The translations under genes were made by a program, and so were the position numbers. This document shows, piece after piece, positions 54,050 to 63,615 of a DNA stretch of 64,000 nucleotides. The notes beneath the pieces were generated by a model. The model saw only the letters and a list, made by a program, of their open reading frames with translations, was not told the DNA's origin and searched no databases. Origin of the DNA: Persicimonas caeni (GTDB lineage Bacteria; Myxococcota_A; Bradymonadia; Bradymonadales; Bradymonadaceae); NCBI RefSeq assembly GCF_006517175.1, contig NZ_CP041186.1:7715074-7779073 (forward strand), in the 5' to 3' direction. Numbering within the stretch: position 1 is the first letter of the stretch; the number at the start of each line of letters is the position of its first letter.

Positions 54050-54373
54050 CTACTCGATCCCGAAATCCTTCTTCGTCGAGAACTCCGGCTCGCCCTCCTC
54101 GGACTGGTACTTCTCGTGGTCGTCGAGATCGCCCACGTACACGCCCAAATTCGAAAATGACATCGGCTGATGGTTATACTCGGCCGTCTGCTCGTCGGCG
54201 AATACGTAGTTGACGTGCTCGAGGGGCTCGCCGTCGTCGGTCTCGCCCGACTGCTTCTGCTTGACCCAACCTTGAAGCTCGTCGCTGGGGACCAACGTCT
54301 TGGACTTGTCGAACTCGCGGTAGACCCACATTGTCTTGTTCTTCTTATCGTAGCGCGTCTTTTTGTCAGCCAT
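54050..54373 (-). CDS. small hypothetical protein
   Basis: 107 residues, soluble, rich in charged and aromatic residues (MADKKTRYDKKNKTMWVYRE at the start; SNLGVYVGDLDDHEKYQSEE later). SD GAGGAGAT about 5-10 nt upstream of the ATG. No motif or family recognised. It starts about 100 bp from the divergent PLP-enzyme gene. Confidence 0.6.
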   Translation of the reverse strand: MADKKTRYDKKNKTMWVYREFDKSKTLVPSDELQGWVKQKQSGETDDGEPLEHVNYVFADEQTAEYNHQPMSFSNLGVYVGDLDDHEKYQSEEGEPEFSTKKDFGIE

Positions 54374-54473
54374 TTCAATATCTCCTCAAGTAAGTAAACT
54401 GCTCGACGATAGCGATCCGCGTATCAGCGCATCCGCGACTCGAGACCCCGAAACCCGAGACCCTAGAGTCCCA

Positions 54474-55550
54474 ATGCTAGCCCTCTTTGAAACACTGCCG
54501 TCGACCCAAACGATTCCACACGCCGAGCTCGGTCAGTTTCCGACGCCCGTCGAAAAGCTCGACGAGCTTGGCGATGAAGTTGGGGTTGAGTCGCTCTACG
54601 TCAAGCGCGATGACCAGTCTGGCACAGTCTACGGGGGCAATAAAGTGCGCAAGCTGGAGTTTCTGTTGGGTCAGGCGCGGGCCGAAGGCTACGACGAGGT
54701 GTGGACGGTAGGCGCCATCGGAAGCCACCACGCGCTGGCCACGTCCATCTACGCTCGTCAACTCGGTCTGACCCCCTCGGTGCTTCACTTTCCCCAGCCG
54801 GTGACCGACCACGTGCTCGACAACTTGCGCGCCATCAGCACCACCCAACCCAAGCTCAAGCTGGCCACCCACAAGGTCCAGCTGCCGGTCGAGGTGGGCA
54901 AGATGAAGGTCAAGCAGTGGCTGTCGACGGCCAAAGACGTCTACTATATCCCCGGTGGCGGCTCGTCGCCGGTCGGCGTGCTCGGCTACGTCAACGCCGC
55001 GCTCGAGCTCCAGCAACAGATCGACGCCGGCGAGTTGCCCGAACCGGACGTCATCTTCGTGGCCGCCGGCACCTGCGGTACCCTCGCCGGGCTGATGCTC
55101 GGCTGCCGCCTCGCCGGCATGAAGACCGACGTCGTCGGCGTGCGCGTGGTCGACAAGATTATGGCCAACGCGACGATGACGGCACACCTTGCGAACAAGG
55201 CCGGCAAGATTCTGACCGAGCATGGCGTCGAGGACGTCCCGCGCATCTCGAGCTCCGAGGTGACCATGCTCGACGACTATTTTGGCAAAGACTACGGCGT
55301 GCCCACCGACGCCGGCATGGAGGCGATCGCGCTCGCCAAGGCCCACGGGGGGCTGAAGCTCGAGCCGACCTATACGGGGAAAGCCTTCGCCGGGCTGCTC
55401 GGGGAGCGCGAACACCTTGAACTTGCTAACAAAAATGTGTTGTACTGGCACACGCTCAGCAGCGCCGATTTGAGCGAGCGCATCGCCCAGGCCGACGTCG
55501 AGCACGACCTTCCCTCCGAGTACCAGAAGTTCTTCGAGACATCCGCGTGA
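54474..55550 (+). CDS. D-cysteine desulfhydrase / ACC deaminase family PLP enzyme
   Basis: 358 residues from the ATG at 54474 (the frame reaches 54363 but that part overlaps the divergent gene). Fold type II PLP enzyme: YVKRDDQSGTVYGGNKVRKL with the Schiff-base Lys57, GAIGSHHALATSIYARQLGL, AAGTCGTLAGLMLG (phosphate loop) and PTYTGKAFAGL. Members deaminate D-cysteine to H2S and pyruvate or 1-aminocyclopropane-1-carboxylate; the choice cannot be made here. The stop overlaps the next start by 4 bp. Confidence 0.85.
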   Translation: MLALFETLPSTQTIPHAELGQFPTPVEKLDELGDEVGVESLYVKRDDQSGTVYGGNKVRKLEFLLGQARAEGYDEVWTVGAIGSHHALATSIYARQLGLTPSVLHFPQPVTDHVLDNLRAISTTQPKLKLATHKVQLPVEVGKMKVKQWLSTAKDVYYIPGGGSSPVGVLGYVNAALELQQQIDAGELPEPDVIFVAAGTCGTLAGLMLGCRLAGMKTDVVGVRVVDKIMANATMTAHLANKAGKILTEHGVEDVPRISSSEVTMLDDYFGKDYGVPTDAGMEAIALAKAHGGLKLEPTYTGKAFAGLLGEREHLELANKNVLYWHTLSSADLSERIAQADVEHDLPSEYQKFFETSA

Positions 55551-56927: not shown

Positions 56928-57413
56928 GTGCTCATACTGGGTATCGACCCGGGCTCCCGCTACACCGGCTACGGAGTCGTCCGCAAATCGGGCAGTGAAA
57001 TCATCTATGTCGCCAGCGGGCGCATCAACGCCGCGCGCGCCGGCGACCTCTCCGAGCGCTTGCCCGTCATCTACGAGGGCATCTGCGAGATCATCGAGGA
57101 GTTCGAGCCGGCCCAGTCGGCCGTCGAGTCGATCTTTTTCGCCAAGAACGCCATGTCGAGCCTCAAACTCGGCCACGCCCGCGGCGTCTCCCTGCTCGCC
57201 CTGCAGATGGCCGACGTCCCCCTGCACGAATACCCTCCCGCCTCGGTCAAACAGGCGGTGGCCGGCCACGGCCGCGCCACCAAGGACGAGGTCAACCGCA
57301 TGGTCAAGATGACGCTTCGCCTCGAGGGCGAGCTCGCCGAGGACGCCGCCGACGCCCTCGCCGTGGCCATCTGTCACTGCCAAGCCGCCGGCTTTGCCGA
57401 CCGCCTGAAGTAA
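56928..57413 (+). CDS. ruvC: Holliday junction resolvase RuvC
   Basis: 161 residues, GTG start with GAGAGG upstream. The four catalytic acids are in place: Asp7 (LGIDPGSRYTGYG), Glu67 (AVESIFF), Asp139 and Asp142 (EDAADALAVAICH). Cleaves Holliday junctions together with RuvAB in recombinational repair. Next gene is ruvA, 77 bp downstream. Confidence 0.96.
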   Translation: MLILGIDPGSRYTGYGVVRKSGSEIIYVASGRINAARAGDLSERLPVIYEGICEIIEEFEPAQSAVESIFFAKNAMSSLKLGHARGVSLLALQMADVPLHEYPPASVKQAVAGHGRATKDEVNRMVKMTLRLEGELAEDAADALAVAICHCQAAGFADRLK

Positions 57414-57490: not shown

Positions 57491-58090
57491 ATGATCGCCA
57501 GACTCAAAGGCCAGCTCCACCTCCTCTCGCTCAACTCGATCATCGTCGACGTCAACGGCGTGGGCTACCACGTTCAGGTGCCCACCGGCACCGCCGGGCG
57601 CATCAAGGCCGGCGACGACGGCGAGGTCAGCATCCAAATCCACACCAGCGTGCGCGAAGACGCCATCACGCTGTACGGGTTTGCGACCGCCGAGGAGAAG
57701 CGCCTCTTCACCAAGCTCACGTCCGTCTCGGGCATCGGCCCCAAGCTCGGCCTGGCCGTGCTGTCGGACCTGAGCCCCTCGGAGTTCATCCGCGCGGTGC
57801 GCAACAGTGACGTCAAAGCCCTCAAGCAGGTCAGCGGCATCGGCAAGAAGACCGCCCAGCGGGTGATCTTGGAGATGAAGAGCTCGGTCGACGAGTTCGA
57901 GTTCGCCGAGCTCGCTCCGGCCACGCCAGGCGCGACCGATGGCATCGCCGACGATCTTCGCTCGGCGCTCGCCAACCTGGGCTACGCCGACGCCGAGGTC
58001 GACAGCGTCGTCAGCGTCATGGCCGACGATCTCGACGATGGCGCCGACCTCGAGCCGCTTCTAATGGACGCCATCAAAATGCTAAGCTGA
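57491..58090 (+). CDS. ruvA: Holliday junction DNA helicase subunit RuvA
   Basis: 199 residues: N-terminal OB fold (MIARLKGQLHLLSLNSIIVD, GVGYHVQVP), two helix-hairpin-helix motifs (VSGIGPKLGLAVLS, VSGIGKKTAQRVILEMK) and a C-terminal RuvB-contacting domain (DDLRSALANLGYADAEVDSV). Normal length. It targets RuvB to the junction. SD weak (GAGACG). Confidence 0.96.
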   Translation: MIARLKGQLHLLSLNSIIVDVNGVGYHVQVPTGTAGRIKAGDDGEVSIQIHTSVREDAITLYGFATAEEKRLFTKLTSVSGIGPKLGLAVLSDLSPSEFIRAVRNSDVKALKQVSGIGKKTAQRVILEMKSSVDEFEFAELAPATPGATDGIADDLRSALANLGYADAEVDSVVSVMADDLDDGADLEPLLMDAIKMLS

Positions 58091-58140: not shown

Positions 58141-59262
58141 ATGTCGAACGACTCGAATATCGAACGAAGCAACGTACGTCGAAGCCCCGACGCGGTCGCG
58201 TCTGCGCCCGAGGATGCCCCGAATAGTCCAAACCAGCGCAATCCGAACCTGGAGCGCGCGGCCACCGAAGACGACGAGTCGATCGATCGCTCGCTTCGGC
58301 CCCAATCTTTCGACGAGTTCGTCGGCCAGGACTCCATCAAGGAGAACCTGGGCGTGATGGTCCAGTCGGCCAAGATGCGCGAGGATACCCTCGACCACGT
58401 CCTCTTGTGCGGCCCGCCCGGGCTGGGCAAGACGACCATGGCGCATATCCTGGCGCGCGAGATGAACGCCAATATCCACGTCACCAGTGGCCCGGCGCTC
58501 GAGCAGAAAAAAGACCTCGCCGGCATCTTGAGCTCGCTCGACCACGGCGACATGCTCTTCATCGACGAGTGCCACCGGCTCAACCCGGTCATCGAGGAGA
58601 ACCTCTATCCGGCGATGGAGGACTACTACTTCGACATCGTCATCGGAAACGGGCCGCACGCGCGCAGCATGAAGCTGTCGCTGCCGCCGTTCACGATGGT
58701 GGGAGCGACCACCCGCGCAGGGCTCGTCTCGGCGCCGCTTCGCAGCCGCTTCGGCCAGGTCGCCCGCCTCCAGTACTACGACTTTTCCCAGCTCAGCCTC
58801 GTCATCCGACGCAGCGCCAAGCTGCTCGAGATCGGCATCACCGAGACCGGCGCCCACGAAATCGCTCGGCGCAGCCGCGGCACGCCGCGTATCGCCAACC
58901 GGCTGCTTCGCCGCGTGCGCGACTACGCCATCGTCGACGGCGACGGGCATATCGACGGAGACCTCGCCGACTACGCGCTGGCCAAGCTCAAGGTCGACGA
59001 CGCCGGCTTCGACGACCTCGATCGACTTTACCTCGAGGCTTTGACGGCCAAATTTGGCGGTGGCCCCGCCGGCCTGAGCACCCTGGCCTCGGCGATCGAC
59101 GAAGAGAAGGATACCATCGAGACGGTCATCGAGCCGTATCTGCTCCAGCAGGGCTACATCCAGCGCACGCCCCAGGGACGCATGGCCACGCGCATGGCCT
59201 TCGAGCACATGAACGTGCCGATCCCGCAGAATGGGTCCAATAACCAGAACAAGCTCTTTTAA
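58141..59262 (+). CDS. ruvB: Holliday junction branch migration ATPase RuvB
   Basis: 373 residues. Walker A GPPGLGKTT (91-99), Walker B FIDECHRL (the usual Ile is Cys), sensor 1 VGATTRAGLVSAPLRSRFG and the winged-helix end QQGYIQRTPQGRMAT. The first about 45 residues are an extra Asn/Ser/Pro-rich tail compared with typical RuvB. With RuvA it drives branch migration. GAGGAAG lies 11 nt before the ATG. Confidence 0.96.
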   Translation: MSNDSNIERSNVRRSPDAVASAPEDAPNSPNQRNPNLERAATEDDESIDRSLRPQSFDEFVGQDSIKENLGVMVQSAKMREDTLDHVLLCGPPGLGKTTMAHILAREMNANIHVTSGPALEQKKDLAGILSSLDHGDMLFIDECHRLNPVIEENLYPAMEDYYFDIVIGNGPHARSMKLSLPPFTMVGATTRAGLVSAPLRSRFGQVARLQYYDFSQLSLVIRRSAKLLEIGITETGAHEIARRSRGTPRIANRLLRRVRDYAIVDGDGHIDGDLADYALAKLKVDDAGFDDLDRLYLEALTAKFGGGPAGLSTLASAIDEEKDTIETVIEPYLLQQGYIQRTPQGRMATRMAFEHMNVPIPQNGSNNQNKLF

Positions 59263-59273
59263 GTGAGTCACTC

Positions 59274-59873
59274 ATGTCAGATGAAGCCGTCGAACACGCA
59301 CGCGCCCTGCTCCACGCGTTGGGCCTCGACGAGACGGTCGATCCGGAGCTACGCACCGCTCCGGAGCGATTCACCGAGCTCTTGAAGACCATGTTCTCCG
59401 GGGTGACCGACGAGCCGCCGGTGCTGAGCACCTTTCCGGTCGAGGCGACGGACACCTCCTCGGAGAGCCGCCCCGACAACGACGCCGCGCTCGAGCCGGT
59501 CGTCCTGCTCGACCTCCCCTTCCAGAGCATGTGCGTGCATCACCTGGTGCCGATGTTCGGCTCCATCGACGTCGCCTACGTGCCGCGGGACCGCATCGTC
59601 GGCTTCGGCAGCATCGGACGCGCCATCGACTTCGTGTGCGCCCGCCCGCAGGTCCAAGAGCGCATCGTCACGCAGCTCGCCGACCTCATCGAGCGACACC
59701 TCGAGCCCGAGGGCCTCTTGGTGCGCTGTCGCGCCCGCCAGCTGTGCATGGAGATGCGCGGCGCCAAAAAGCGCGGCACGCTGGTGTCGACCGCCTCGCG
59801 CGGCTCGCTTCGCTCCGGCGAGCGTCGCCTCGAAATCATGCGCCAGTTCGCCCAGGCTGACTCCGCGCTATGA
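59274..59873 (+). CDS. GTP cyclohydrolase I family protein, altered active site
   Basis: 199 residues. Overall FolE fold: MCVHHLVPMFGSIDVAYVPR, ARPQVQERIVTQLADLIERH, QLCMEMRGAKKRGTLVSTAS. The zinc ligands Cys87, His90 and Cys158 are kept. Other usually invariant positions differ: CEHH is CVHH (Val88), the substrate-binding Ser-Lys of GLSK is Gly-Ser (GFGSIGR), and the His of the H-x-CM block is Gln156. GTP cyclohydrolase activity is therefore uncertain; a changed substrate is possible. Overlaps the downstream flavoprotein gene by 4 bp (ATGA), suggesting a joint pathway. Confidence 0.8.
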   Translation: MSDEAVEHARALLHALGLDETVDPELRTAPERFTELLKTMFSGVTDEPPVLSTFPVEATDTSSESRPDNDAALEPVVLLDLPFQSMCVHHLVPMFGSIDVAYVPRDRIVGFGSIGRAIDFVCARPQVQERIVTQLADLIERHLEPEGLLVRCRARQLCMEMRGAKKRGTLVSTASRGSLRSGERRLEIMRQFAQADSAL

Positions 59874-60823
59874 ACGCCCCCAAGGCTCAGACCGACAAAG
59901 TCGATACGGACTGCGTGATCGTCGGCGCCGGACCGGCCGGCATCAGCGCCGCCAAGTGGCTGCTCTCCTTTGGCGTCCCCTTTCGCTGGTTTAGCACCGA
60001 CGGCGACGTGGGCGGGCTCCTCCACCGCGTCAGCAACGCCATCCACAACTATCCGGGCGGGCATTTCGGCTCGGGGCTCGACCTCGTCGACGCGCTGCGC
60101 GCCGACGTCGCCGACCTCGACGACACATCCCCGGTCGCCGCCCACGTCCGCCAACTGCGCCTGTCGGACGGCCGCTGGCACGCCACCTTTCTCGACGCCG
60201 CGCCTGTGAGCGCCGACTCGGTCATTTTGGCCACCGGCACCCGCTACCGCACGCTGGGCGTGCCCGGCGAAGACGAGGCGATGGGCGACTGCGTCAGCCA
60301 GTCGGCCACCGCCGACGGCGAGCACTACACGGGCCGCACCGTCGCCGTGGTTGGCGGCGGCGACGCCGGCTTCGAGAACGCCCTTCGCCTGGCCGAGCAC
60401 GGCTGCAACGTGTGGATGCTGCTGCGCAACGACCAGTTCAAAGCCCGCCCCCATTTTGTCGAGCGTGTGGAGGCGAACCCGAATATCGAGTTCTACCCCT
60501 TTCCGACGACCGTGACCGAGATTCGCCCCGGCGAAGGTGATGACGCCTGTCGGCTCATCCTCGACGTCGCCGGGCGACGCCAACTCTTGGACGTCGCGTG
60601 TCTGTTCGTGCGCATCGGCGTCGAGCCGGTGCTCCCGGCCATCATGCCGTCGCTCGAAACCTCCGGCGGCTTCGTCGTCGTCGACTCCCACCAACAGACC
60701 TCGGCTGACGGCCTCTTCGCCGCCGGCGACGTGACTGACTGCCTGCTGCGCTCGGTCGCCACCGCGGTGGGCGCCGGAGCAACCGCCGCAAAAGCCGCGG
60801 CGCTCCGGCTCGGTTACCTGTAA
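59870..60823 (+). CDS. thioredoxin-reductase-like flavoprotein lacking CxxC
   Basis: 317 residues. FAD motif CVIVGAGPAGISAAKWLL, FAD contact GGLLHRVSNAIHNYPGG, NADPH motif AVVGGGDAGFENALRLAE, and ATG/GD motifs LATGTRYR and GLFAAGDVTD. The position of the redox cysteines (CATCDG in TrxB) reads QSATADG, so it cannot reduce thioredoxin in the usual way. Similar CxxC-less TrxR-like enzymes act as ferredoxin/flavodoxin-NADP reductases or as small-molecule oxidoreductases. Coupled to the altered FolE homologue upstream. Confidence 0.85.
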   Translation: MNAPKAQTDKVDTDCVIVGAGPAGISAAKWLLSFGVPFRWFSTDGDVGGLLHRVSNAIHNYPGGHFGSGLDLVDALRADVADLDDTSPVAAHVRQLRLSDGRWHATFLDAAPVSADSVILATGTRYRTLGVPGEDEAMGDCVSQSATADGEHYTGRTVAVVGGGDAGFENALRLAEHGCNVWMLLRNDQFKARPHFVERVEANPNIEFYPFPTTVTEIRPGEGDDACRLILDVAGRRQLLDVACLFVRIGVEPVLPAIMPSLETSGGFVVVDSHQQTSADGLFAAGDVTDCLLRSVATAVGAGATAAKAAALRLGYL

Positions 60824-60858: not shown

Positions 60859-63615
60859 CTACTGCAGGCTGCACTCGATCATGCTGCCGACGACGAGCGA
60901 CCATTCTTCGGGGTCGTCGCTCGTCTTCTCACTCCAGAAGAACACCAACCCCTCCGGACCGCTCGCCATCTGCGGGAAGTTCGACGACCCGCTGGTCATG
61001 CCGAACTGATCGAAGCGCATCGGCTTCTCGGTCGGCATCCCATCGGCGTCGTGTCGGTAGAGATCCCGGTTGAGCGTGCGCAGCCTTCCGTCGACGACCT
61101 CCACATCGATGCGCTCACAGTAGTTGTAGCTGCCGCCGTGACTGAACTCGACCAGCGGAGCACTCCCCTCGAGCTGCAACGACGCGTCCAACGCGACGAC
61201 TGTCGGGCGATCACTGCTCGACTGGCCGCCCCACACGACCCAATAGCCGCCGCCGGGCCGCTGAACGATATTGGCGTGCGCGGCGTGATAGATGTCCGCG
61301 TCGACGCTGAACGTCGTCGTCTTGTTGGCGCCAATCTCGATGGGCGTGCCTTCGACGGTGCCGTCCAAGCCGATCACCGCCGCCTCGAGCAAATAGCGCT
61401 TGTCGCCCGAGGAGCTGCCGTCGTCGGGGTTGGCGCGGCTCGACCACACCCCGAGCCATCGGTCTTCGTACGGCGCCAGCGTCAGCCCGCGAGCTTTCGC
61501 GTCCAGATCGCCTACCTTCACCGACGCCGAGGGCGCCTGCAAGGCCTCGTCGAAGACGCGGAAGCCTGCGTAGTAGCCACTGTCGTACTCGTCCCAGGTC
61601 ACTGTAAGCTCTCCGTTGCGGTGAAAGACGCGGGGGAACTCGCCGCGTCCGACTTCCACGGGCGGCTCGGTGCGCGGCTGTCCTCCGTCGAGTCGCTGGA
61701 TGTAGACCCGTCCACTGCTGTCCCAGACCACCCAGGTGGCTTGGCCGTCGGTCGCGGTGTCCGGCGTCTGCTCGGCATAGGCGCCGAGCCTGACGGGCGT
61801 GCCCTGCACCGTGAAGTTCGAGTCGATCTGGACCGTCATCAGCGAGCCGCCGCTCGATCCGAGCGTGCGCTGATTCCAGAAGAGCTGCCACCCGCCGTCG
61901 ACCGGCGTGATGTACGGGTGATAGGCGGCTTCGCCGTCGAACGGAATCCGCAACTCCTCGACGAGGGGCATGTCGTCGACCAGGCCGTTGCAGTTGTTGT
62001 CCAGCCCGTCGCACTGCGGCACGTCGCCCAGGGTATTCGGCACGCACGTCGGCCCCGTCTGCGTGCAGGCGTACGAGCCCTCGCCGCACACGCCCGGAAG
62101 ACCGGTGGCACATTCGCCATCGGGCGCCGGTCGGTCCTCGATGAGTCCGTCGCAGTCTCGGTCCCAGCCGTCGCAATGCGTGGCCGGCTCTCCGCAGCTG
62201 TCTTCTCGTACCGGACACGCAATCGGTCCGCCGCGCAGTTGATAGCGCTTGCTGCCGTCGGCTTGTCGGATCGAGGTGGCCCACAGCCAACCGGCGTTGC
62301 TACGCGCCGTCGCGATACCCTCGATACGACACTCCTCGCAGCCTTCGATGGCCGACGACTGCGGGAGCTCGAGCCCGCTCTCCGCGCCGACGTCCGGCAT
62401 GCCGGGCTGACCGTCGCGCGTCCAGGCGTAGACTTTGGTCATGTCGTTGCCGAACGCCGTAATCCCTCGGCCGTTCCAGAAGACGTCGAGGTTGCGCGCC
62501 CCGTAGGTATCGATGGGCATCTCGATGACGTCGGTGCGCGGCGCGCCCTCTTTGTCGAACTCGCGGCCAAACAACGACGAGCCCGCCGCCCACACCGCCA
62601 AGAACCCCGCGTCGACGCTGAACAGCCCCAGCGCTTTGGTGCTCTCCTGTTGGTCGCTCACACTGATCGGCTCGACGAGTTCGCGGCCGTAGTGGTCGTG
62701 CAGGTGGAGCTTGGGTGCTTCGTCGGCGTTCGTGCTCGACAACACGCCGTATCGGTCGGGCAGCGTGGCAAGTTTCAAGTCGGCGCCCTCACCGGCGCTC
62801 ACCCAATGAACGGCGGTGTCGAGCGGCACGCCGTCCATGCCGAGACGCGTGCCGCTCATCCGACCGTCGTAGATGCGCGCCATGAGCACGCCGCCGGCCG
62901 CCGGCAGCAACTCGATGCGGCCGCTGAAGTTTCGGCTCCCCACGAATTCGTAGGGGCCCTCGACCACGGCGCCCTCGTCAGAGACGACCACCGTGTGCAG
63001 CACACGGCCGAAGCTGTAGGCGATGAGCAAGCCCTCATCGACGGGCAACAGCGCCTCGACGATCTGTGGGTCGTCGGCGCTGACTGGGATCACCGTCGGC
63101 TCGAGATCGAATGAGCCATCGGCATTGAGTCGCGCCACCTTCATTTCGCCTGGCTCGCTGACGGTCGAGATTTGACCCCAGGCCGCCCAGACACGGTCTC
63201 CATCGGCCGCCAAAAGCGGTGGCAGCCCCAAAATATGCGATTCATCGAGCCAGAACGCCTCGAAGCCCAACGGCTCGATATTGTCGACCAGGCCGTCGCA
63301 GTTGTCGTCGATCCCCGAGCAGGTCTCCTCGCCTGGTTCGACCTGGCCTTCGCAGGCGCTCCACTCTCCTCCGGCGCAGGTCTGCGTGCCTGCCGTGCAC
63401 GCGCCTTCGTCGGTGCCGCATGCTCGCTCTTCGCCGTCGGTGCACCCGCCTGCGTCGGCGTCCGCAACTTCGGTATCCGCAATGTCTGCGTCCGCATTGC
63501 CGGCATCTGAAAGGGGGTCTTTTTGCTTCGGGGCATCGTCACTGCAGGCAGTGGCGACGACCATCACGAGTAAAACGAGGAGGCTTCGCAGCCTGGGCGG
63601 GTCGACGTACTTCAT
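60859..63615 (-). CDS. lipoprotein with putative-metal-binding (MopE-type) motifs and beta-propeller-like body
   Basis: 918 residues, lipobox ATAC, then an Asp/Ala-rich linker. Three copies of the Asp-rich putative metal-binding motif: ETCSGIDDNCDGLVDN, THCDGWDRDCDGLIED, PQCDGLDNNCNGLVDD (PF11617-like), each beside Cys-rich ACxGxxTxxxC segments. The rest (about 115-480 and 560-900) is Trp/Asp-rich repeated beta blades (GDRVWAAWGQ, ATWVVWDSSGRVYIQRLDGG, GGGYWVVWGGQ), fitting a propeller. Surface-exposed Ca2+- or Cu-binding scaffold is the best guess. Stands alone. Confidence 0.83.
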   Translation of the reverse strand: MKYVDPPRLRSLLVLLVMVVATACSDDAPKQKDPLSDAGNADADIADTEVADADAGGCTDGEERACGTDEGACTAGTQTCAGGEWSACEGQVEPGEETCSGIDDNCDGLVDNIEPLGFEAFWLDESHILGLPPLLAADGDRVWAAWGQISTVSEPGEMKVARLNADGSFDLEPTVIPVSADDPQIVEALLPVDEGLLIAYSFGRVLHTVVVSDEGAVVEGPYEFVGSRNFSGRIELLPAAGGVLMARIYDGRMSGTRLGMDGVPLDTAVHWVSAGEGADLKLATLPDRYGVLSSTNADEAPKLHLHDHYGRELVEPISVSDQQESTKALGLFSVDAGFLAVWAAGSSLFGREFDKEGAPRTDVIEMPIDTYGARNLDVFWNGRGITAFGNDMTKVYAWTRDGQPGMPDVGAESGLELPQSSAIEGCEECRIEGIATARSNAGWLWATSIRQADGSKRYQLRGGPIACPVREDSCGEPATHCDGWDRDCDGLIEDRPAPDGECATGLPGVCGEGSYACTQTGPTCVPNTLGDVPQCDGLDNNCNGLVDDMPLVEELRIPFDGEAAYHPYITPVDGGWQLFWNQRTLGSSGGSLMTVQIDSNFTVQGTPVRLGAYAEQTPDTATDGQATWVVWDSSGRVYIQRLDGGQPRTEPPVEVGRGEFPRVFHRNGELTVTWDEYDSGYYAGFRVFDEALQAPSASVKVGDLDAKARGLTLAPYEDRWLGVWSSRANPDDGSSSGDKRYLLEAAVIGLDGTVEGTPIEIGANKTTTFSVDADIYHAAHANIVQRPGGGYWVVWGGQSSSDRPTVVALDASLQLEGSAPLVEFSHGGSYNYCERIDVEVVDGRLRTLNRDLYRHDADGMPTEKPMRFDQFGMTSGSSNFPQMASGPEGLVFFWSEKTSDDPEEWSLVVGSMIECSLQ

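Follow-up and report, generated by a model that had tools for sequence, protein, structure and literature searches.

In Persicimonas caeni, the sole candidate of a known type for GTP cyclohydrolase I is a FolE variant with an altered active site

The predatory marine bacterium Persicimonas caeni encodes a single FolE-like protein, and this variant is the only candidate of a known type for the GTP cyclohydrolase I step in its genome. We say so because the genome contains one PF01227 gene and no FolE2, and other genes of the pathway are present. Our preferred explanation, which we hold with moderate confidence, is that the variant would be a functional cyclohydrolase I-type enzyme with a T-fold, dependent on zinc and with its ribose/phosphate half rebuilt, and that it would supply pterin for both folate and queuosine. 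Almost all bacteria synthesise folate, and the active site of the enzyme that begins the pathway is regarded as fixed. In the present case, a large bacterial group (the predatory Bradymonadia) appears to rely on a version of FolE that is missing several of the residues for binding and catalysis, with no known substitute. Should the variant work, either the residues now accepted as essential are wrongly listed or the step proceeds by another chemistry. Should it fail to work, then dozens of genomes contain a folate entry enzyme that is not recognised.

By the window, we mean the whole stretch of DNA that we analysed, which is 64,000 nucleotides long (positions 7,715,074 to 7,779,073 of contig NZ_CP041186.1). 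In window positions, the relevant features are:

56928 to 57413, plus strand: presumably ruvC, as named from the order of the operon; neighbour query
57491 to 58090, plus strand: ruvA
58141 to 59262, plus strand: ruvB, the upstream neighbour of the folE variant
59274 to 59873, plus strand: variant GTP cyclohydrolase I-like (FolE-like) protein, an open reading frame of 199 amino acids with an ATG start
59532 to 59543, plus strand: C87-V88-H89-H90; CEHH with Val for Glu, the zinc ligands C87 and H90 and the catalytic histidine H89 unchanged
59601 to 59612, plus strand: GLSK changed to G110-F111-G112-S113, without the Ser that binds ribose and the Lys that binds phosphate
59655 to 59660, plus strand: Q128-E129, the guanine-binding Gln-Glu pair, retained
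59739 to 59747, plus strand: Q156-L157-C158; zinc cysteine retained, N7-protonating histidine (E. coli H179) replaced by Gln
59870 to 60823, plus strand: thioredoxin-reductase-like FAD/NAD(P)H flavoprotein of 317 amino acids, whose first 4 bases (ATGA) overlap the folE stop

PF01227 matches the genome (a single contig of 8,047,206 bases, or 8.05 Mb) just once, at 59274-59873. The protein scores 144.4 bits against a cut-off of 27, which places it with FolE in Pfam, and it matches no other Pfam family; in particular, the Pfam scan gave no match to PF02649 (FolE2). It falls below all of the NCBIfam cut-offs for folE, namely TIGR00063 (124.5 vs 181.6), NF006826 (146.3 vs 162), NF006825 (124.2 vs 174), and NF006824 (90.9 vs 202). 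We rejected the idea that it belongs to QueF, as TIGR03139 gives 21.7 bits against a cut-off of 86.9. Thus, when the protein was compared to the FolE, FolE2, and QueF families, as a first-pass annotation of this DNA had suggested, the match to PF01227 stood, and the thresholds of the NCBIfam folE models, PF02649, and TIGR03139 were not reached. The AF2 monomer model has a pLDDT of 92, and all 50 rows shown from a Foldseek search with this model were GTP cyclohydrolase I. FolE from M. tuberculosis aligned to it with a TM score of 0.82 and 34% identity.

The residues of the variant map without gaps onto GTP cyclohydrolase I from Thermus (1wm9). Giving the variant first, the correspondences are C87=C108, V88=E109, H89=H110, H90=H111, G112=S133, S113=K134, R116=R137, E129=E150, Q156=H177, C158=C179, and R162=R183. 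According to PMC4005822, zinc in the Thermus enzyme is bound by Cys108, His111, and Cys179, guanine by Glu150, and the triphosphate by Lys134, Arg137, Arg183, and Arg64; Ser133 makes contact with the hydroxyls of the ribose, on which His110 acts, and His177 protonates N7. The sequence of the variant retains the zinc site (C87, H90, and C158), the neighbouring histidine H89, Q128 and E129, and the phosphate-side arginines R32 and R116, plus R162 in the window protein. It contains neither the ribose Ser nor the phosphate Lys nor the N7-protonating His. Hence the first-pass annotation was right that the zinc ligands are kept while CEHH became CVHH, GLSK became GFGS, and the histidine became glutamine: all of this is confirmed by the alignment to 1wm9 and codon by codon (C87 TGC, V88 GTG, H89 CAT, and H90 CAC at 59532-59543; Q156 CAG at 59739-59741 and C158 TGC at 59745-59747). 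It had also stated that the changed positions bind the triphosphate or act in catalysis. Such roles are given to the Lys (phosphate), the Ser (ribose), and the His (N7) in the available part of the account of the FolE active site, which gives none for the Glu of CEHH (PMC4005822). The same part of that source states that replacing the N7 histidine (H179) in E. coli FolE abolishes activity (PMC4005822).

It appears, then, that the guanine-ring half of the pocket is untouched and that the ribose/phosphate half and the N7 acid have been rebuilt. Judging from sequence, we call the window protein a FolE variant rather than a FolE: the fold, the zinc site, and the guanine site agree with FolE, and the ribose/phosphate site, the His179 position, and the NCBIfam scores do not.

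To see how widespread these changes are, consider the class. PF01227 is present in 47 of the 57 genomes in our class survey, at 51 places, which are 8 canonical copies (224-260 bits), 42 variants, and 1 fragment that was excluded. All 42 variants (42/42) have C110, H112, H113, C181, Q151, and E152, in what we take to be E. coli numbering, and the equivalents of E111, S135, and K136 are always lost. At the H179 position, 30/42 have Gln and 12/42 have His. The window's own family, f1, has 19 loci, and its new states are Gly in 19/19, Gln in 19/19, Val in 17/19, and Ser in 15/19. The altered active site is a conserved lineage trait in the class. The changes are not chance, as the same replacements recur across a bacterial family. 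They are also fixed across that family and under purifying selection, which agrees with the view of the first-pass annotation that they are not drift.

Outside of the class, the same core is seen with fewer consistent changes around it. The 20 loci from the wider phylum (19 non-class places below 180 bits among the matches listed, plus one second copy of 217 bits) have all lost E111 and have all kept the zinc ligands, H112, and the Gln-Glu pair, while the other positions are mixed. Together with the class, the zinc ligands, H112, and Gln-Glu are invariant in 62/62 variants (class and wider-phylum matches listed). We also assembled a comparison set of 88 sequences, comprising 80 contig-search loci among the matches listed and the 8 canonical class copies, in which the usual residue is present in 80 (E), 84 (S), 80 (K), and 87 (H). 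This set is not random, as it was found with patterns derived from the variants. The matches listed from the underlying contig search are mainly canonical FolE and may omit near relatives, and the exact variant may occur outside the class as well. C[ASC]HH with GLSK and the His intact is found in 8/80 of the contig loci listed, all from Acidobacteriota (Thermoanaerobaculia and kin: L102, L103, L105, L106, L107, L109, L111, and L112), and L102 exceeds the TIGR00063 cut-off for folE. Loss of E111 is common and probably tolerated; the unusual feature appears to be its combination with the loss of Ser, Lys, and His. A DNA pattern for the GFG motif was non-specific across the phylum, as it matched 282/282 genomes and a control matched about as often.

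These intermediates raise the question of whether the variant is just an ordinary FolE that has relaxed, with Glu, Ser, Lys, and His positions that tolerate change, slow formation of dihydroneopterin triphosphate from GTP, and a flavoprotein that is an unrelated passenger. The eight Acidobacteriota loci, the passing score of L102, and the many mixed states among the twenty phylum variants (among the matches listed) are as this would predict, and FolE turnover is slow anyway, according to the available part of PMC7750480. We nevertheless consider it improbable: the replacements in f1 are fixed rather than scattered (Gly 19/19, Gln 19/19, Val 17/19), and the flavoprotein is kept in 19/19 f1 loci.

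Selection on the variant gene appears to be strong. In six close pairs, three from variant-only genomes and three from genomes that also have FolE2, dN/dS is 0.058-0.134. Nine other pairs, which are more distant and partly saturated, have values of 0.08-0.39; the most distant pairs are not among these. With the fixed replacement residues, the low dN/dS led us to reject drift or a pseudogene, and the loss of activity that the first-pass annotation had offered as one outcome is unlikely. A change of substrate, its other suggestion, or of product is possible. A catalytically dead remnant, or a pseudoenzyme with a regulatory role, could account for the loss of several active-site residues and for the missed folE cut-offs. 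It is hard to reconcile with the zinc ligands, H112, and Gln-Glu being invariant in 62/62 variants (class and wider-phylum matches listed), with dN/dS of 0.06-0.13 in the close pairs, and with the variant being the only candidate in many genomes, and we think it very unlikely. The best tree has two clades, one of which unites f1, f2, f4, f5, f6, and a single phylum row and the other the CPHH variants (f3 with most of the phylum rows). A single clade of all variants without E111 has a p-AU of 0.084, so one origin is not rejected; this topology test left out f6 plus eight more rows that were long or odd, used a quick method, and includes long branches.

The neighbouring flavoprotein was part of the original observation, and its coupling to the folE variant is real and conserved: the two genes are adjacent in 19/19 loci of f1 and 5/5 loci of f4 (24/24). 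Its model has a pLDDT of 93, and the closest solved structures are thioredoxin reductases. The active-site CxxC is replaced by S-A-T-A (VSQSATADG), which leaves it without a redox-active CxxC, and across 20 aligned flavoproteins the sole invariant position of the SATA stretch is the Ser at residue 145. We rejected the idea that the flavoprotein replaces an absent DHFR, as DHFR is present in the window genome.

The pair adjoins ruvB in 18 f1 loci and 5 f4 loci, and across the class the folE variant adjoins ruvB on the same strand in 26/41 loci checked. At L033 the pair is still together though ruvABC is on the other strand. The gene pairing in f1 and f4 points to a shared function. The flavoprotein cannot be needed by every FolE variant, because it is absent next to the variants of f2 (0/3), f3 (0/9 checked), f5 (0/4, with two loci at contig ends), and f6 (0/1), which share the core residue changes. 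By eye, the neighbourhoods of the f2, f3, f5, and f6 variants contain no common partner. One f3 genome that also has canonical FolE carries a CPHH variant with the gene of a short-chain dehydrogenase downstream of it, head to tail (L038:4890-6196). Two other neighbours in the window may be mentioned. At 54363-55550 is a PLP enzyme of the D-cysteine desulfhydrase group, which scores below the NCBIfam cut-offs (the best is CuyA, 209.7 vs 450) and, in many f1 loci, its place upstream of ruv is conserved. At 60859-63615, on the minus strand and convergent with the flavoprotein gene, is a lipoprotein-like ORF of 918 amino acids that is rich in Cys and Asp.

The main rival to our preferred explanation is that the variant is a neofunctionalised paralogue. 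It would open or modify a purine or pterin without a ribose triphosphate, or stop at the formamidopyrimidine, and hand its product to the flavoprotein in a separate pathway, while the pterin for folate would come from an unrecognised enzyme or from prey. We find this possible, if somewhat doubtful. It is attractive that exactly the ribose and phosphate contacts and the N7 acid were lost while the zinc and the guanine half were kept, that the two-gene unit with the flavoprotein is present in 24/24 f1 and f4 loci, even away from the ruv genes (L033), and that in f4 genomes with both the variant and FolE2, purifying selection on the variant is strong. Moreover, by its title, Bracher 1999 reports that E. 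coli FolE mutated at H179 forms formamidopyrimidine triphosphate, which makes this compound a concrete product to look for. On the other hand, 27/57 class genomes have no other GTP cyclohydrolase I of a known type, and most other genes of the pathway are there. Furthermore, f2, f3, f5, and f6 have the same core changes without the link to the flavoprotein.

A further reading is more tentative still. A cyclohydrolase I that does not read the ribose triphosphate and has no N7 acid might release formamidopyrimidine or a less phosphorylated dihydropterin, which the NAD(P)H flavoprotein might convert onward. The predatory Bradymonadia would then have a two-gene route from purine to pterin, either in place of the GTP cyclohydrolase I step of folate and queuosine synthesis or for making a new cofactor. 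We put this forward as a speculation that is rather unlikely to be right as a whole.

The rest of the genome speaks for a role in folate synthesis. A search of the whole genome found no FolE2 (PF02649), and the check for a second, canonical folE that the first-pass annotation had proposed found neither a canonical folE nor a folE2. FolB, HPPK/FolK, DHPS, and DHFR are all present, as is one PTPS (QueD-like), which we take to be an E. coli-like QueD. A separate pathway that runs beside a normal folE, as originally suggested, is therefore not supported as stated: there is no other folE or folE2, and FolB, FolK, DHPS, DHFR, and PTPS are present. The first-pass annotation had conceded that its view would fail if a folate prototroph had no other folE. 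There is indeed no other folE; that the organism is a folate prototroph is something that we infer, and the group has other auxotrophies. In the available part of PMC7460792, the auxotrophies of the Bradymonadia group are for amino acids, biotin, thiamin, B12, and B6, and folate is absent from that list.

Across the 57 class genomes, 27 have the variant only, 11 have the variant with FolE2, 4 have the variant with canonical FolE, 4 have canonical FolE only, 4 have FolE2 only, and 7 have none of these; FolE2 is thus present in 15/57. Variant-only genomes make up 17/29 of those with good quality (completeness of 90% or more, contamination of 5% or less). HPPK was detected in 24/27 of the variant-only genomes and not found in G002, G009, and G048, and DHPS was detected in 55/57 class genomes. 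The coexistence of the variant with FolE2 (11 genomes) or canonical FolE (4) means that its role is not simply replaced by either, and because it is under purifying selection in three genomes with FolE2, it does something that FolE2 does not simply replace. FolE2 may be a low-zinc backup only.

The seven genomes with neither PF01227 nor FolE2 are G034 (99% complete), G014, G024, G028, G039, G044, and G046, and they keep most other folate genes. They could reflect assembly gaps or an unrecognised GTP cyclohydrolase I. Because most of the pathway is there without either enzyme, an unrecognised GTP cyclohydrolase could exist; pterins derived from prey are also possible. There is an older parallel in Chlamydia and Wolbachia, which have later folate genes and neither folE nor folE2, according to the available part of PMC1971073.

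The distribution of QueD is compatible with a link to queuosine as well. PTPS is of two types. The E. coli-like PTPS/QueD is present in 21/24 of the variant-only genomes that have a PTPS vs 2/22 of those with FolE2 or a canonical FolE (Fisher p 1.2e-7, not corrected for kinship, with E. coli-like defined as 115 bits or more, a threshold set after the scores were seen). Within f1, the counts are 13/13 vs 1/4. The exceptions are G005, with an E. coli-like QueD alongside FolE2, and G043, with one alongside canonical FolE. At two places, FolE2 and a second type of PTPS are adjacent on one strand, as if gained together (G004:C28:7351-8573 and G023:C324:1099-2334). These patterns are most simply explained by the acquisition of a FolE2-QueD cassette that took the place of the older QueD. 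Such a gain agrees with the variant having earlier served the queuosine route and does not prove it. In the 8.4 kb around QueD in the window genome, no other queuosine gene was recognised by eye.

Returning to the working enzyme that we prefer: since we found nothing else in the genome that is known to catalyse this step, the variant most likely carries out a cyclohydrolase-I-type conversion that ends in a dihydroneopterin species. As in FolE, a zinc-bound water would attack C8 of a guanine nucleotide that E129 holds in place. Because glutamine cannot donate a proton as an acid would, the proton that normally comes from H179 would have to be supplied by another group or by water. As the ribose/phosphate side would be read differently, the substrate might be GTP in another binding mode or a guanosine nucleotide with fewer phosphates, and the product might be dihydroneopterin triphosphate or a lower phosphate. 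This precursor would then feed folate (through FolB, FolK, and DHPS) and queuosine (through QueD). The flavoprotein, which lacks the usual disulphide, might act on or near the product with NAD(P)H; this is the weakest step. The explanation is supported by the variant being the sole candidate in 27/57 class genomes, the invariant core residues, the low dN/dS, and the association with QueD. Counting against it, the histidine that was replaced is reported as needed, the ribose Ser and phosphate Lys are gone, and the NCBIfam cut-offs are missed. The coexistence of the variant with FolE2 or canonical FolE, the limits of the QueD association, the seven genomes with neither enzyme, and the possible supply of pterins from prey count against it too.

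Our literature searches of titles and abstracts found no description of such a FolE variant, and a search on FolE and GTP cyclohydrolase in Myxococcota gave no papers. The closest known system is FolE, or GTP cyclohydrolase IA (PF01227 and TIGR00063; M. tuberculosis 9p8z/11yz and Thermus 1wm9), with which the window protein shares its fold, its length, the zinc ligands, the catalytic His112, the guanine-binding Gln-Glu, and two or three phosphate-side arginines. Unlike FolE, it has other residues in place of the CEHH glutamate, the Ser and Lys that bind ribose and phosphate, and the N7 His; it misses the NCBIfam cut-offs; and its gene overlaps a flavoprotein gene. FolE2, or GTP cyclohydrolase IB (PF02649), would fill the same step and is absent from both the protein and the genome. 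QueF, or preQ1 synthase (TIGR03139), is from the same T-fold superfamily and matches the window protein only weakly. The flavoprotein resembles bacterial thioredoxin reductase (TIGR01292) in its FAD and NAD(P)H domains, with 200.6 bits; it differs in having SATA for CxxC, and its score is below the cut-off of 343.45. Finally, there are CxHH variants of FolE elsewhere, in the CPHH clade of the phylum and in Thermoanaerobaculia. Many of these retain Ser, Lys, or His, and f3 has no flavoprotein partner (0/9), but they share with the window protein the loss of E111 and the retention of the zinc site and the Gln-Glu pair.
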